DNA from: a virus
Length of the DNA stretch: 34,891 nt
Virus record (IMG/VR): IMGVR_UViG_3300020457_000035
Coordinates: 1 to 34,891 of that record
Reading direction: 5' to 3' (one strand)
In this document: positions 82 to 31,450 of the stretch, piece after piece
Numbering within the stretch: the stretch's first letter is position 1
Layout: every line of letters starts with the position of its first letter
Notes under the pieces: generated by a model
The model's database searches: none
What the model was told of the DNA's origin: nothing
The model's input: only the letters and a program-made list of their open reading frames with translations
Program-made: the position numbers and the translations under genes

Positions 82-3000
82 TTATGAGCGAACGCCAGTT
101 AAGTAGTCTATGCTCTTAATTCTATAGGATGCTCCACCAGTTCCATCTAGAAGTTCTCCACCCAATATTGCGTATGCAACTGCACCTGCTCCAGTGGTAT
201 CTCCACTAGCATTAGTAAATGTAACTGTTGGGTGTAAATTGTAGGTTCCATCAACAGTTTGAGTGATTCCATATCCACCATTATTAATGGTAATAGAAGC
301 AACTTGGTCACCTGCACCTGTCATAACAACTGTTCCTGTGCATTGAATGTCTCCGACATCTTCAATGGCAACTGTTGGGGTTCCTGTGTAATTCGTTCCC
401 GCACTTTGGATATAAAAATCAGTCACTGTGCTATTTTCAGAGAATTGATACAAGAAACCTCCCTCACCTTTAGCGACATTACCAGTATTAAATGGAACAA
501 TATTCTGTACCTGTAATACCTTATTTGTAGCATCCCAACCAACAACAGTTGCTTGAACTCCAGAAGATCCCCCAGTAACTACCTCGTTAACACTAAAGTT
601 TCCACCACTTCCACCCTCTAGATATATCTCAATAACTGCTGGATGATCTGTACCTTCATTAAGACCACCTGCAGTATCAACACCAGCAAACTTAAATGGT
701 ACACTAGCATCTTTAATTGCATCACCAACAGCAAATAGAGTTGTATTTGTTCCACCCTGAGTTGCTTCAATACCATAGAGAGAGTTGTAAATACCACCAT
801 CAAGATTAATTTGATTCTCGTAAAGAGTTCCTGTATTTACCAAATCTGGAATTCCATCACCAGCACCATCATTTTCATCATCATCTTCAAACTTTCTATT
901 TGTTACAGTTGAAATTGGTACAGTCAATAATGTGATAACATCAGTATCACTATCAGTTACCAACACTGGGTTTGGTGGAGTGCTTGTAGATGTGCTACTG
1001 TCTGCAACACCAGCATCAAATTGAACTGTGGCATCTTCTGTTGCTGCAATACCACCATCAATAAATGCCAATTCATCAATTTCAAAAGTTACTAATAGTT
1101 CTCTAGTAGCAGGATTCCAATCATAAACTTTTGAAATTTTGTTAGATGAATTTTCAACTCTACGAATAAGTCTATCACCAACATTAAATTTATATGTTGA
1201 TATACCTTCTCTATCATCCTGACTAGTGTCAAGAATAATTCTTTGATCATAATTAAAGTTTACACCACGAGTAAGACCAGAGAATTTCTCATCAGTTTTT
1301 GCGGTGTAGGATATAGTTTCATACCCAACAATAAAATTACCAGATCCAGGAAAAGAACTTGTAGATTTTACAAAAATTTCAGTGGCATCAGGAGTGATTG
1401 CTTTAGTTAATCCAGTAATATAAATGTTTGATGAATTATTTGCCTGACGAGCACCTGCTTTACGTTTTAAATCAACTAGTCTAGTGAAGATAACTTTTGG
1501 TGGTGATGTGTAACCTTCTCCTTCATCAGTAACAGTAATCGATACGATTTCTCCTTGATCAACAGCAGCAACTGCTTTTGCACCAATACCTCCTCCACCA
1601 GTAATTAAAATAAATGGTGCCTCTTGATAAAACTCTCCAGCATTAGCAATATCAATTCTTGTTACCTTTCCAGTAGTATCAATTTTTGCAGATCCTTGAG
1701 CATCCTGTCCACCACCACCTTCAAAGATAACTGTTGGAGCAGTAGCATAACTTCTACCAGCATTGAGTAAAGTTAGACCAGTAACAGTTTGAACAGTAGG
1801 AACACCAGTTGCACCAGATCCCTCACCACCTAATATTCTAGCTTTTGCAGGTCCGTAATAGTTATCACCATTTTTAGACATCTTAACATAAGATACTGTT
1901 CCTGAATCAGTCAAGACAATATCACCTGCAGCACCATCAGGAAAAAGATCTACAACATCAGGAACTACACTACCTTCAAATAAAGGAACTCCATACATTT
2001 TAGGACCAATAGCATATGGATATACAGGATTTGCACTGCTATCTTCACTCATAAAATATGCATAAGTTCCATTTGGATACTCAGGAGTTACGGCAAACTT
2101 ACCATTGAATTCATCTAATGTACCTACAGAAGTATCGTAGATATAGTCTTGTACTAAATCTCCTAAAATATAACCAACCTGAACAGTTCTAACACCTAAA
2201 CCAGAAGTGCTATATCCAAAGACATAGAGAGTAGTTGGTGCTGTAACAGGAACAGTAAATCTAATTTCTCTTGTGGTTGCTGTATTGAAGGCACTAAGAT
2301 ACGCAGCAAATCCAGACACAGCAGATCCATCAATATAATATTCAACTCCCAATTCATATAAGAATGAAGTTTGTCCTATATCAGATGGATTACCTGTACT
2401 ATGCCATCCATCATTAGTTGCACTGATTAGTAAAAAATTAGCATTATTTGATGCATCATTTTGATTGAATATAATTGTCTTACCTCTATCAAAAGATAAG
2501 AAATTTGGTCTAGATCCATCAAATAAAAACTCATTGTTAGAAACAGTTACTGCATATGTAACTGTACCTGCGGTAGTTACCTGAGGTCTTGTACCAGGAA
2601 GTTCTGCAGTAGTTTTAAGACGGAATGATGAAATTTCTCTTGTTACAACACCATTATCGTAAGTTACGTTAATTGACGCTCCCATATATCCATGTGCCTG
2701 ACATGCATAATACAAAGTGTTAGGTGCATCTGAAGCAACTGTAATACTCACACTACGATTTGTAGCAGTAGGATGACCAGCAGCATAAGTTGCATAGTCA
2801 ACATTACTTCCATCTAATGTATATACAACACCAGTTTCATATCTATCTACTCCTCCATATGCTGATTCTACTTCACTAAAGTATATCGCATGTGTGGTAT
2901 TAGATGCATCATTTTGATTAAATGTATATGTTGCTCCTCTAACAAATGTAAGAACTGGGGATTGAGTAATACCAGTAAACTGTCCACCATTAATATAATA

Positions 3001-4653
3001 TCCCTTTCCAGATCCTTGTCCAAAGAAAGGATGACTTGATGTTTTACTAGCAACAGTTACCGTGTAGGAAATTGTAAGACCGTCAGGACTTCTGTATCCA
3101 AAAGGTCCGTAAATAGGATAACCATCGAAAGACATACCAAGAACTTTAGAATGTCCGTCAATATGTCTTGAACGATCTATGGTTGAAGCATCGTTGGGTT
3201 GAAAGAAACCCTCAGCATAATAATTATTAGTTAAAGTCTCAGCACTGGTATCTGTACTGATGATGATATATCCTTCATCACCATCTTGACCAGACATATT
3301 TGGATGGTTCTTACAGTAATAATAAATTCTACTTGTCTCATCTTCATTCATCATGAATATTGGAGCATATTCATCTTCATAATCTGCTGCAGGTGCTGCA
3401 GATGCTCCAGTGCTTCTATAATAAAGAGTACCAGGATTATCGTTATGAGTACCGTCAGGAGTTATACTAAATCTAATCGGATGATTATTATTTGAAGAAT
3501 CGGATTGATTGAAGTTGATTATATAATTTCTTTTTACTGTAATATTTTCTGGAGCAAAATAATATGTACCTGGCGAGAAAGGACCAAATTTTGCAGCGTC
3601 AGGACCGAACTCAATATAATAAGCATTAAATGATATTGGATCGCTTTCAACAGTAAAAGAAAATCCTGTAGAACCTAAGCATCTATCATTTTCTTCAAAA
3701 CTATCACCATTAAGATTTCTAAGATAAATTCTGGTAGGTACGTTATTACCGTCTCTTACAACCTTTGTTATTTCTCCGTTAGCAGTACCTCCAATTTCAT
3801 CAACTGTTCTGCCAACTTCAAATGTACCAAGAGTTTCATCAGTATTAGTAATATTTAAAACTATATTTCCTTCAACCTTTGTAGTCCAAGTAAAATGTTT
3901 AAATTTACCCCATTCAAAAACACCATTACTTAAAGCAAACTCATTAATCAGTTTGCTAGATTGATAATATCTTACATTTCCATCAGTTACATCATCATAA
4001 ACACCATTGTTTTTGATGTAATTATATTTTACAGAATCAATAGCAAAATTAACAGGAGCACCACCTTCAGTTCCCCACTCTGGAGTATGAAAAAGACCTC
4101 CATTCGCAAGAATACCTATTGTTTTATTTGATTGTTCTACTCTAGTACCAGGATCAGGTACATCTTTACCACCACGATATATAAACGTTTGATCAAAAGT
4201 ACGATCAACTAAAGATCCACCACCAGGTGCTGCCTCTTCTTGAATCCAAGTGGGTTTTGGATGATTATCAGATTGAATTCTTATTCTATCAGTAATAGAA
4301 TCAAATATTCCTGTTGTAGGAGAATTTGGATGTCCTTGCCAAATTCTATTAAGATCAAATGAATCTATAACTGTTGGAGTTTCTTGTTCGGGAAAGAATT
4401 GTAAACGTAGAGGATCATAACCCTTACCTCTTTCAAGAACTCTTACATGAATAATTTTGCCAGAATCAGGATCAATAATTGGATACAGTAATGCTTCCTG
4501 ATCAGGTGTACCACAACCATCAACAGTCAATCTAGGTGGATCTGAAGGATCATAACCTTCACCACCGTTTTTAACTTTTATAGCACGAACACCGAAAATC
4601 TCATCAAAGATGGGTTCGATAACAGCACCAGATCCAGGAACAGTTCTTGTCAT
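82..4653 (-). CDS. Large fibre/virion protein with YHYH and cupredoxin-like domains (1523 aa)
   Basis: A mosaic virion protein, probably a tail fibre or baseplate appendage, encoded 5 nt after the 406-aa gene. In order: N-terminal GY unit (about 30-80); a region of unknown fold; cupredoxin-like module 1 (about 345-465; H391, C447, H450, M453); YHYH core (about 500-520, SFDGYPIYGPFGY); cupredoxin-like module 2 (about 560-670; H588, C651, H654, M657); a degenerate third module lacking the ligands (about 700-815); the second YHYH block (about 840-890, EFNGKFAVTPEYPNGTYAYF); GY units (about 912-1058); and an acidic DxDxDG-like stretch (1257-1270). Modules 2 and 3 therefore interrupt the YHYH domain. 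No clear ribosome site precedes the ATG, so reinitiation from the upstream gene is likely. Host or glycan contact is a plausible role but is not shown. Confidence 0.87.
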   Translation of the reverse strand: MTRTVPGSGAVIEPIFDEIFGVRAIKVKNGGEGYDPSDPPRLTVDGCGTPDQEALLYPIIDPDSGKIIHVRVLERGKGYDPLRLQFFPEQETPTVIDSFDLNRIWQGHPNSPTTGIFDSITDRIRIQSDNHPKPTWIQEEAAPGGGSLVDRTFDQTFIYRGGKDVPDPGTRVEQSNKTIGILANGGLFHTPEWGTEGGAPVNFAIDSVKYNYIKNNGVYDDVTDGNVRYYQSSKLINEFALSNGVFEWGKFKHFTWTTKVEGNIVLNITNTDETLGTFEVGRTVDEIGGTANGEITKVVRDGNNVPTRIYLRNLNGDSFEENDRCLGSTGFSFTVESDPISFNAYYIEFGPDAAKFGPFSPGTYYFAPENITVKRNYIINFNQSDSSNNNHPIRFSITPDGTHNDNPGTLYYRSTGASAAPAADYEDEYAPIFMMNEDETSRIYYYCKNHPNMSGQDGDEGYIIISTDTSAETLTNNYYAEGFFQPNDASTIDRSRHIDGHSKVLGMSFDGYPIYGPFGYRSPDGLTISYTVTVASKTSSHPFFGQGSGKGYYINGGQFTGITQSPVLTFVRGATYTFNQNDASNTTHAIYFSEVESAYGGVDRYETGVVYTLDGSNVDYATYAAGHPTATNRSVSITVASDAPNTLYYACQAHGYMGASINVTYDNGVVTREISSFRLKTTAELPGTRPQVTTAGTVTYAVTVSNNEFLFDGSRPNFLSFDRGKTIIFNQNDASNNANFLLISATNDGWHSTGNPSDIGQTSFLYELGVEYYIDGSAVSGFAAYLSAFNTATTREIRFTVPVTAPTTLYVFGYSTSGLGVRTVQVGYILGDLVQDYIYDTSVGTLDEFNGKFAVTPEYPNGTYAYFMSEDSSANPVYPYAIGPKMYGVPLFEGSVVPDVVDLFPDGAAGDIVLTDSGTVSYVKMSKNGDNYYGPAKARILGGEGSGATGVPTVQTVTGLTLLNAGRSYATAPTVIFEGGGGQDAQGSAKIDTTGKVTRIDIANAGEFYQEAPFILITGGGGIGAKAVAAVDQGEIVSITVTDEGEGYTSPPKVIFTRLVDLKRKAGARQANNSSNIYITGLTKAITPDATEIFVKSTSSFPGSGNFIVGYETISYTAKTDEKFSGLTRGVNFNYDQRIILDTSQDDREGISTYKFNVGDRLIRRVENSSNKISKVYDWNPATRELLVTFEIDELAFIDGGIAATEDATVQFDAGVADSSTSTSTPPNPVLVTDSDTDVITLLTVPISTVTNRKFEDDDENDGAGDGIPDLVNTGTLYENQINLDGGIYNSLYGIEATQGGTNTTLFAVGDAIKDASVPFKFAGVDTAGGLNEGTDHPAVIEIYLEGGSGGNFSVNEVVTGGSSGVQATVVGWDATNKVLQVQNIVPFNTGNVAKGEGGFLYQFSENSTVTDFYIQSAGTNYTGTPTVAIEDVGDIQCTGTVVMTGAGDQVASITINNGGYGITQTVDGTYNLHPTVTFTNASGDTTGAGAVAYAILGGELLDGTGGASYRIKSIDYLTGVRS
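1480..1925 (-). repeat. GY beta-repeat cluster in the 1523-aa protein
   Basis: Residues about 912-1058 hold four GY-type units (SKNGDNYYGPAKARILGGEG, NAGRSYATAPTVIFEGGGG, NAGEFYQEAPFILITGGGG, DEGEGYTSPPKVIF), the same repeat class found in the giant protein and the 974-aa protein. Confidence 0.78.
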
Positions 4654-4658
4654 TTATA

Positions 4659-5879
4659 TCAGATTAATACGTTGATAGTGCCATTCATAAGTGCATGAAT
4701 GGTGCATTGATAATAAAGAGTATTTGGAGAATCCATAGGAACTGTCCAATACAAAACATTAGTTCCGCTACCACTTTGACCTGCAGTATAAGCAGTTCCA
4801 GAAAGTCCTTGAGTACTTTGAATTCTAAATGGGTGAGTACCACCATTTGAACTATTATCAAATGCGTACGTCATACCTCTCATAACATAGATTGTTGGAT
4901 CACTAGTAGCAGAAGAGAAACCAGGACCATTAAATGTAAAATGACTTGCTCCATCTGCACCAAGTTCCCACCAAGTCATTGGACTCTTGGTAACCACCCA
5001 ATTAGTTCCATTCCAATACAAAGAATCACCCTGAACAATTCCTGTAACATCGGTATCGGTTAATGCAGAGAAAGTTGTAGTTAACGATCCACTAAAATTA
5101 ACAGTTAACGTATCACCAGTAATTGCAGTTGTAATGTTTGTACCACCTGCAATAGTGAGAGTATCAGATACACTATTCGCAGTAGTGGTGCCTGAATCAC
5201 CAACAATAGATGCAAAGGTATTAGATTGACCAGCACCAGCTACATCATCAGCAGGAACAAAATTAGTTCCATTCCATTTCAATACTTGGTTGGTAGTGGG
5301 TGCAACAGTTGTAATATCAACATCTGTTAGAGAATCAAGTCCTGAGTATTCTGTTAAAAGTTTTACTCTAGTATCACCAACACCACCAGCAGTGATGTTC
5401 ATATTTACATATGGGTTATCATCACCATCAACTGTAAAGAAATAACCAGGTGTAGACGCGGCAGTGGGAGCATTACCCAATGCAGTGTATTCATTTTTAT
5501 AAGAGATGGTAGATGCTACGGAAACATTTCCAGAAGTTCCATCAAAAATTGTTGTTTGAGATCCAGCAGTAATCCTTACATCACCAGTTCCGTTTGGAAC
5601 GAGAGTTATATCACCATTTGACGCGGAAACAATAGAGTTTCCAGAAACATCTAACGCAGAAGTAAGTGCATTAAAATTTGAAGGAGCAAAACTACTTCCA
5701 TTGTATCTCAAAACCTGACCCACTGCGGGGTTAGAAAGAGAAATACCTAGAGTAGTTCCATTACCAATGGCAGAATACACTTCATTAAAATTATCATTAA
5801 TCTTATCACCACCACTTCTTAAAGTATCACCTGTATTGTCATTAGCTGTAGTACCAATGTTTAGGGGTTGTTTAGCCAT
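4659..5879 (-). CDS. Tail-fibre-like protein with C-terminal cupredoxin-like domain (406 aa)
   Basis: The N-terminus (NIGTTANDNTGDTLRSGG, then KINDNFNEVYSAIG) is a motif I recall from many cyanophage fibre-like proteins. The body is low in charge and rich in Thr, Asn and Gly. Three copies of a QVLRYNGSSF / QVLKWNGTNF / DSLYWNGTNWV motif and a DITLVPNGTGDVRI segment point to an extended trimeric beta fibre. The last about 100 residues look like a small cupredoxin: a VMRGMTYAFDN strand, THPFRI with H349, and YYQCTIHALMNGTINV with C392, H395 and M398. This H...C-x2-H-x2-M set, with the closing strand, copies the type-1 copper loop of amicyanin. Whether copper is bound is unknown. A late promoter lies 20 nt upstream, and the ribosome site is weak (GCGAG). 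It probably acts at the fibre tip or attaches to the adjacent 1523-aa protein. Confidence 0.87.
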   Translation of the reverse strand: MAKQPLNIGTTANDNTGDTLRSGGDKINDNFNEVYSAIGNGTTLGISLSNPAVGQVLRYNGSSFAPSNFNALTSALDVSGNSIVSASNGDITLVPNGTGDVRITAGSQTTIFDGTSGNVSVASTISYKNEYTALGNAPTAASTPGYFFTVDGDDNPYVNMNITAGGVGDTRVKLLTEYSGLDSLTDVDITTVAPTTNQVLKWNGTNFVPADDVAGAGQSNTFASIVGDSGTTTANSVSDTLTIAGGTNITTAITGDTLTVNFSGSLTTTFSALTDTDVTGIVQGDSLYWNGTNWVVTKSPMTWWELGADGASHFTFNGPGFSSATSDPTIYVMRGMTYAFDNSSNGGTHPFRIQSTQGLSGTAYTAGQSGSGTNVLYWTVPMDSPNTLYYQCTIHALMNGTINVLI

Positions 5880-30883: not shown

Positions 30884-31450
30884 TTAACCTCGTGTCATTC
30901 CGATAAAAACATTTTTACTACATCCAGTAACTACAGAATTACATGGAAACGCTACGCTCTTGTCCCCAAAGGGATCACCAAACCTACCTGCTCGTCTTCC
31001 ATTGATAAAAACTGTTTTGCATGTAGCAAATAATTTGCGAGCATGCCCTTCGGCAGCTTCGCGTCCTCCACGTGTTCCAATTGTACACCAATAAGCAGGA
31101 TTAGGAGTACAACCTGGTGGACACCCTTTGGGAATACCAGTATAGCATGCTTTATGCACAGTTGGTGTAGGATGTGTAATTAATAAATCTTGATCTATAA
31201 TAGGAGCAATCTTATTGATTCTAACATTCCTAGTCAAAGCATTTAGTGAAGTCTGTGGAGTGGGTGGCCACATTGTAGTGGCATCCATAAGTTGTACAGA
31301 CTTTGGAACGATTTTTGGATCTTTTGGTGGTTTTATACAACCAGGAAGAGTTCCCCCTCCCAATCCAGGATGATGAGTAGACCCAGAACCTGTTCCGTGT
31401 CCACTGCAACTTCCCATGAATAGTGCTGCTGCACCTCCGCTAATTGGCAT
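30884..31450 (-). CDS. PAAR-type tail spike tip protein (188 aa; T4 gp5.4-like)
   Basis: PAAR proteins form a small sharp cone that caps the central spike of contractile tails and helps pierce the host envelope; T4 gp5.4 is the phage example. The recognisable part is the C-terminal half: an ITHPTPTV segment near residues 91-98, RGGREAAEGHARKLF near 127-141, VFINGRRAGRFGDPF near 147-161, then FPCNSVVTGCSKNVFIG ending at 184. This is the usual arrangement of a PAAR fold, with several His and Cys residues (H93, H99, H136, C144, C170, C177) available as metal ligands. The N-terminal 50 residues are Gly, His and Pro rich and look like a flexible extension; the total is about twice a minimal PAAR domain. 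A good ribosome site (GGAG, 7 nt before the ATG) supports the start. The next gene begins 2 nt after its stop codon. Confidence 0.85.
   Translation of the reverse strand: MPISGGAAALFMGSCSGHGTGSGSTHHPGLGGGTLPGCIKPPKDPKIVPKSVQLMDATTMWPPTPQTSLNALTRNVRINKIAPIIDQDLLITHPTPTVHKACYTGIPKGCPPGCTPNPAYWCTIGTRGGREAAEGHARKLFATCKTVFINGRRAGRFGDPFGDKSVAFPCNSVVTGCSKNVFIGMTRG

Follow-up and report, generated by a model that had tools for sequence, protein, structure and literature searches.

A predicted cupredoxin domain with a putative type-1-like copper site in the gp9 baseplate protein of a marine cyanophage

The stretch of DNA analysed here, referred to as the window, is the whole of a virus record (G000) of 34,891 bases. 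Its first 25 kb matched 276 phage records, all named Synechococcus, Prochlorococcus or 'Cyanophage', with Prochlorococcus phage P-SSM7 as the best DNA match (68% query coverage, 77% identity); the matching region of P-SSM7 includes gp9. Most long genes of the window are T4-type baseplate genes (gp6-like, gp25-like, gp9 and wedge subunits), all of them on the minus strand. The gene at 4659–5879 (minus strand) encodes a 406-aa gp9-type baseplate wedge/tail-fibre connector, which carries a T4 gp9/10-like N-terminal domain at residues 3–69 (5673–5873; Pfam T4_gp9_10_N, E 1.8e-10, 41.6 bits against a cut-off of 25) and matches phrog_677, 'baseplate wedge tail fiber protein connector', at E 6e-188. 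Judged by these matches and by the DNA match to P-SSM7, the protein is gp9 of a marine T4-like cyanophage. An earlier, sequence-only reading had placed a cupredoxin-like module at the C-terminus of a phage fibre; the C-terminal position held, and the carrier is the gp9 connector and not strictly a fibre. Elsewhere in the window, a 7447-aa baseplate-cluster protein (5903–28246, minus strand) has many repeats, including 'VYNLDGTGE'-type repeats and a YHYH-like stretch seen by eye, and contains no C-x2-H-x2-M or C-x4-H-x2-M motif. A 188-aa protein at 30884–31450 (minus strand), with 9 Cys and 6 His, matches phrog_281 (PAAR motif).

The last ~107 residues of gp9 (residues 300–406; 4662–4982, minus strand) are predicted to adopt a cupredoxin fold. 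AlphaFold2, run on the last 111 residues with 56 aligned relatives of 24–78% identity to the query, returned a nine-stranded domain model with a mean pLDDT of 92.8 and a pTM of 0.85. A Foldseek search of this model against solved structures placed copper nitrite reductase (NirK), rusticyanin and amicyanin among the first ten matches at a probability of 1.00; the E-values were modest, with four matches at E ≤ 0.001. The best VIA-align match was the N-terminal domain of Hyphomicrobium NirK (Z 10.4, 2.3 Å over 94 residues), rusticyanin scored Z 9.3, and cupredoxin-fold proteins made up 50 of the 50 best VIA rows. The full-length gp9 monomer model, built from 30 gp9 sequences only (67–88% identity), was poor (mean pLDDT 62) except for residues 301–406, where block means were 89–94 (about 90 overall) and the same cupredoxin domains were matched with Z up to 10.5 over 92 residues. 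The Greek-key cupredoxin fold that the sequence-only reading had anticipated was thus recovered in two predictions with different alignments, by Foldseek and by VIA. An ordinary tail-fibre knob of another fold is ruled out by the two predictions and the fold searches. The closest predicted viral models by fold were cyanophage tail-fibre and baseplate proteins. Small 'beta-sandwich proteins' of pithovirus and marseillevirus records are more distant matches to the domain fold, with E about 1e-6 to 2e-5 (ranks 30, 42, 44 and 49).

Four candidate copper ligands lie within this domain, all encoded on the minus strand: H349 as the first His (4833–4835), C392 (4704–4706), H395 as the second His (4695–4697) and M398 (4686–4688). 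C392 is the only Cys in the 406 residues, and H349 and H395 are two of just three His. The residues, their numbering and the amicyanin-type C-x2-H-x2-M-x-G loop with its upstream His were exactly as first described; the loop reads C-T-I-H-A-L-M-N-G and is identical in length to the C-x2-H-x2-M loop of amicyanin. The sequence signature of a type-1 copper site, a His and then Cys-x2..4-His-x2..4-Met in the appropriate strands, is present in gp9, with the strands as predicted. In the 80 loci collected by means of this domain, and in the window, all four ligands are present in 81/81 gp9 copies representing 55 distinct sequences, and further gp9-type proteins in named isolates carry the full set in 5/5. 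The ligand codons vary synonymously across gp9 (first His CAC/CAT, Cys TGC/TGT, second His CAT/CAC), and an HPY variant found at the first His in one of 60 first-His rows retains the His. Comparison of the gp9 copies demonstrates purifying selection on the ligand set.

The module in gp9 is not the sole copy in the window. The next gene (82–4653, minus strand) encodes a 1523-aa baseplate wedge protein, gp10-like by position (phrog_708, E 0), in which HMM comparisons located three more copies on the same strand. Copy 1 (3247–3600) has the full set H391, C447, H450 and M453, copy 2 (2635–3021) has the full set H588, C651, H654 and M657, and copy 3 (2149–2550) has zero ligands and serves as a natural negative control. 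Copies in relatives of this protein were assigned to whichever window copy they matched best in BLAST; in several loci copy 2 groups with copy 1, and hence only the sum of the two is used, giving a full set in 74/77 over the fetched relatives. The three misses are the copy-1 rows L070 and L072, which have the same loop without Met, and L062, which is cut off by the contig end. In the copy-3 class, by contrast, the loop was found in 0/68. Because copy 3 lacks every ligand while 74/77 of the others are complete, the ligands are not needed for the domain to be recognisable, and yet most copies keep them. The region 2035–3156 (minus strand) also contains a split YHYH domain (PF14240), whose first part (3073–3156, profile positions 92–119, E 1.8e-4, alone below the cut-off) precedes copies 2 and 3 and whose second part (2035–2175, profile positions 139–185) follows them, so that two cupredoxin-like copies appear to have been inserted between the parts of this domain.

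Most loci were collected by means of peptide patterns containing the loop, so that conservation is overestimated in copies other than gp9; the totals of the two viral-contig scans with alignments are lower bounds. The 56-copy alignment was hand-chosen from 87 copies; the 31 left out, ligand-less copies among them, were nearly all of the copy 1 and copy 3 types of the neighbouring protein. Across the 56 chosen copies, invariance is confined to the four ligand columns and that of the Tyr two residues before the Cys, whereas each loop spacer position holds 6–8 different residues; a Pro directly follows the first His in 54/56. A plain chance motif is ruled out by this conservation, given the invariant columns in the 56 copies and the retention in 81/81 gp9 copies.

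Because loci had partly been found by loop-containing patterns, a masked-ligand HMM and a named-phage sample were made as controls. The HMM, in which the ligand columns were blanked and the adjacent ones left as they were, recovered 424 copies from 257 sources: 348 have the full set and 76 have no loop. Applied to 26 named-phage loci, mostly picked at steps down the tblastn rankings, the same HMM gave 38 matches in 25/26 loci: 28 full sets (27 with C-x2-H-x2-M and one, in S-SKS1, with C-x4-H-x2-M) and 10 without the loop. These 10 matches correspond to 7 distinct copies, three being second halves of an insert-bearing copy. Clustering at 60% identity, with copies of <70 aligned residues left out beforehand, yielded 41 clusters: 28 with the exact set, 1 with the Met one residue later (29 full), 1 without the Met and 11 losses. 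All 11 loss clusters lack both His ligands and the Cys, and 9 of them are of the copy-3 type. In RN05-S the ligands are likewise lost jointly, while altered loop lengths in S-SKS1 and L230 (C-x2-H-x3-M) keep the full set. The exceptions to all-or-none loss are L070/L072, where the Met is gone, and three insert-bearing degenerate copies in named phages, which keep the first His and have no loop; one of them also keeps a Cys. Free loss of the H/C/H/M set among homologues, which the sequence-only reading had named as a ground for refuting its proposal, does not occur in gp9; particular other copies do lose ligands, mostly as the whole set. A joint loss of this kind is what a selected metal site would be expected to show. 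The degenerate second copies of L264, L265 and L266 and the copy in L296 carry a long insert within large structural proteins; they keep the first His, lack the Cys-His-Met loop and in some cases keep a Cys.

Of 50,697 phage records, 373 gave a tblastn match to the domain with an E-value of 10 or lower, and in 339 of these the match spans 80% of the domain or more. Cyanophages account for nearly all of them; a small number of Pelagibacter (SAR11) and Methylophilales phages also matched and turned up again with a second query, and of these Mosig, Baldr and Melnitz-3 have full sets. P-HM1 and P-HM2 have five module matches each and P-SSM2 has four; S-PM2 has one degenerate copy without the full set, and in podovirus P-GSP1 the module lies in a tail-region gene. 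The T4 and P-SSP7 genomes gave no match to the module, and neither did plasmids. Among genomes around a Bacteroidota bin, the module was found in 9/198 and 5/149 (G004 in both). Fourteen of 20 bacterial or MAG loci matched, with C-x2-H-x2-M in 15/15 copies, several of them behind export-signal-like N-termini; L256, L276, L278, L279, L283 and L285 gave no match at the threshold, and in L256 a full set is visible by eye. Two of five matches in genome contigs (L253 and L257) have a gp9-like N-terminus at their start, and here bacterial bins probably contain phage sequence. Taken together, the sequence matches demonstrate that the module is reused in many marine-phage proteins of the tail, baseplate and fibres, as well as in bacterial proteins that are exported.

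The relationship to known cupredoxins was assessed with sequence profiles. A profile of the 56 sequences finds solved nitrite reductases, plastocyanins, amicyanins and rusticyanins (best E 1.2e-6), and its ligand columns align with the ligands of plastocyanin 2plt. A control profile built from 25 of the 56 sequences, with ligand columns set to X, found no solved cupredoxin better than E 0.58. Because the match vanishes when the ligand columns are masked, sequence kinship to known cupredoxins hangs on the motif, and the matches of the 56-sequence profile are not counted as independent of it; the predicted fold provides a second, only partly independent line for kinship. Pfam Copper-bind (PF00127) matches 7/56 relatives at E ≤ 0.01 (best 8.6e-5) and has no match in the window protein. 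Classical cupredoxins (plastocyanin, azurin and amicyanin) often have Asn after the first His, whereas Pro takes this position here, and therefore the second shell of the site should differ. With amicyanin, rusticyanin and the NirK N-terminal domain, gp9 shares the predicted fold (VIA Z 8–10.5 for rusticyanin and NirK) and the ligand set; those proteins are periplasmic electron carriers, whereas gp9 is a virion protein with no redox partner identified among the window genes. The plastocyanin (PetE) loop is C-x2-H-x4-M, two residues longer between His and Met than the loop of gp9. T4 gp9 resembles the window protein in its T4_gp9_10_N N-terminal domain and its baseplate wedge gene neighbourhood; our genome search gave no match to the module anywhere in T4, while the gp9 C-terminus here is a predicted cupredoxin with a complete ligand set. 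Fold prediction and sequence together point to a known fold and a known type of site in a new place, the virion baseplate.

The best explanation of these results, to which we give a probability of about 0.6, is that the gp9 cupredoxin domain with its putative type-1-like copper site serves as a metal-clamped extracellular barrel. Marine cyanophage virions may carry copper, because the fold and the complete ligand set are kept across very different marine phages. Each site would bind a single copper ion, picked up from sea water or while the cell lyses, and the ion would clamp the strand of the first His to the C-terminal loop of a small barrel that is presumably exposed at the surface. With the loop clamped by the ion, the loop end would therefore form a rigid face, which could hold the fibre or touch the host surface. 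The most likely role is that of a metal-clamped adhesion or assembly domain, in which the cupredoxin is used mainly as an extracellular beta-barrel and not as a long-range electron carrier. In T4, gp9 and its neighbour are present in 18 copies each; if the same copy numbers apply, 18 + 36 = 54 sites would be carried per virion. The boldest reading adds to a ring of dozens of type-1 copper sites on the baseplate of marine T4-like phages a gating function, in which copper loading or redox state would control fibre holding, adsorption or contraction and infection would come to depend on copper or on redox conditions at the host surface; in our estimate this reading is distinctly unlikely.

An alternative that we consider unlikely holds that the copper is redox-active: the baseplate would sense reductant or light-driven electron export at the host surface, and a Cu(II)/Cu(I) switch would alter fibre holding by gp9 and its neighbour and gate adsorption or contraction. 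The type-1 set sits on the class of protein by which fibres are coupled to the baseplate in T4. Light-dependent adsorption has been reported for some cyanomyophages; P-HM2 is estimated hardly to adsorb in the dark, and no effect of light is described for P-SSP7 (PMC7112961, PMC2984593); to that extent the five module matches of P-HM2 and the absence of matches in P-SSP7 fit a redox trigger. Two phages compared make no correlation, however, and the module also occurs where no photosynthetic host is involved, in SAR11 and Methylophilales phages and in some Bacteroidota. S-PM2, a light-dependent phage, has only its one degenerate copy without a full set. A general link to light is disfavoured because of S-PM2 and the non-photosynthetic hosts, and light-dependent adsorption was rejected as a general explanation, since P-HM2 and P-SSP7 fit it and S-PM2 does not.

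It is also quite unlikely that the domain is a cupredoxin free of metal in the virion, with its four residues conserved because they pack or form hydrogen bonds and never bind copper. The detectable relatedness of copy 3 without any ligand and the modest Foldseek E-values are compatible with this explanation, but residues serving the fold alone would hardly be lost jointly in some copies (copy 3, RN05-S) and strictly retained in others, where spacers vary freely and loop lengths are altered. Binding of another soft or borderline metal, for stability only, is improbable. Zinc would fit, as Cys-His-His-Met can hold it in metal-exchanged cupredoxins; a Met ligand in a cupredoxin barrel nevertheless favours copper, and Cys, His or Asp are usually more numerous in structural zinc sites. 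Structural metals are described in phage tails (PMC11705849). The proposal that the module is a petE-like photosynthesis electron carrier merely fused to a tail protein and still carrying electrons draws on the PetE annotation of a relative in S-SCSM2R and is very improbable, given the C-x2-H-x2-M loop in place of that of plastocyanin, the lack of a Copper-bind match in the window, the adhesin-like and peptidase genes beside the S-SCSM2R gene and the tail proteins of phages with non-photosynthetic hosts that carry the module.

The S-SCSM2R gene annotated PetE (L083, 3794–4300) encodes a tail-type module beside adhesin-like and peptidase S8 genes and is possibly a false auxiliary metabolic gene. 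In the open-licence literature, outside which most subscription journals and preprints fall, we found no paper on the module. Should copper occupy the putative sites, a major group of marine viruses, the common phages of Prochlorococcus, Synechococcus and SAR11, would be copper proteins with a metal in the virion, and the cyanobacteria Prochlorococcus and Synechococcus are copper-sensitive. A metal-clamped gp9 domain would then represent a new testable factor in adsorption and, for the Trojan-horse idea, a second metal beside iron. It would also be a warning that phage genes labelled 'PetE' may encode parts of the tail and have no role in photosynthesis.

Two comparisons place the proposed copper site among other extracellular proteins. 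HxH sites of T4 gp37 are described as holding iron, metals in phage tails can be structural, and HxH iron sites in marine tail fibres underlie the Trojan-horse idea (PMC11705849). The likeness would be a metal on a marine phage tail with a possible trace-metal or host-receptor meaning; the gp37 iron is octahedral and lies between fibre strands, whereas the gp9 site is of copper type and lies within a predicted beta-barrel. Exported Bacteroidota proteins (L272, L273, L274, L280 and others) have the same HPF...YYxCxxHxxM module with the full set in an extracellular setting, but differ from gp9 as cellular secreted or lipoprotein-like proteins, some of them collagen-like. In L256 (367–6225) and L284, an exported-looking Bacteroidota protein carries the module with the full set in the middle of collagen-like repeats.
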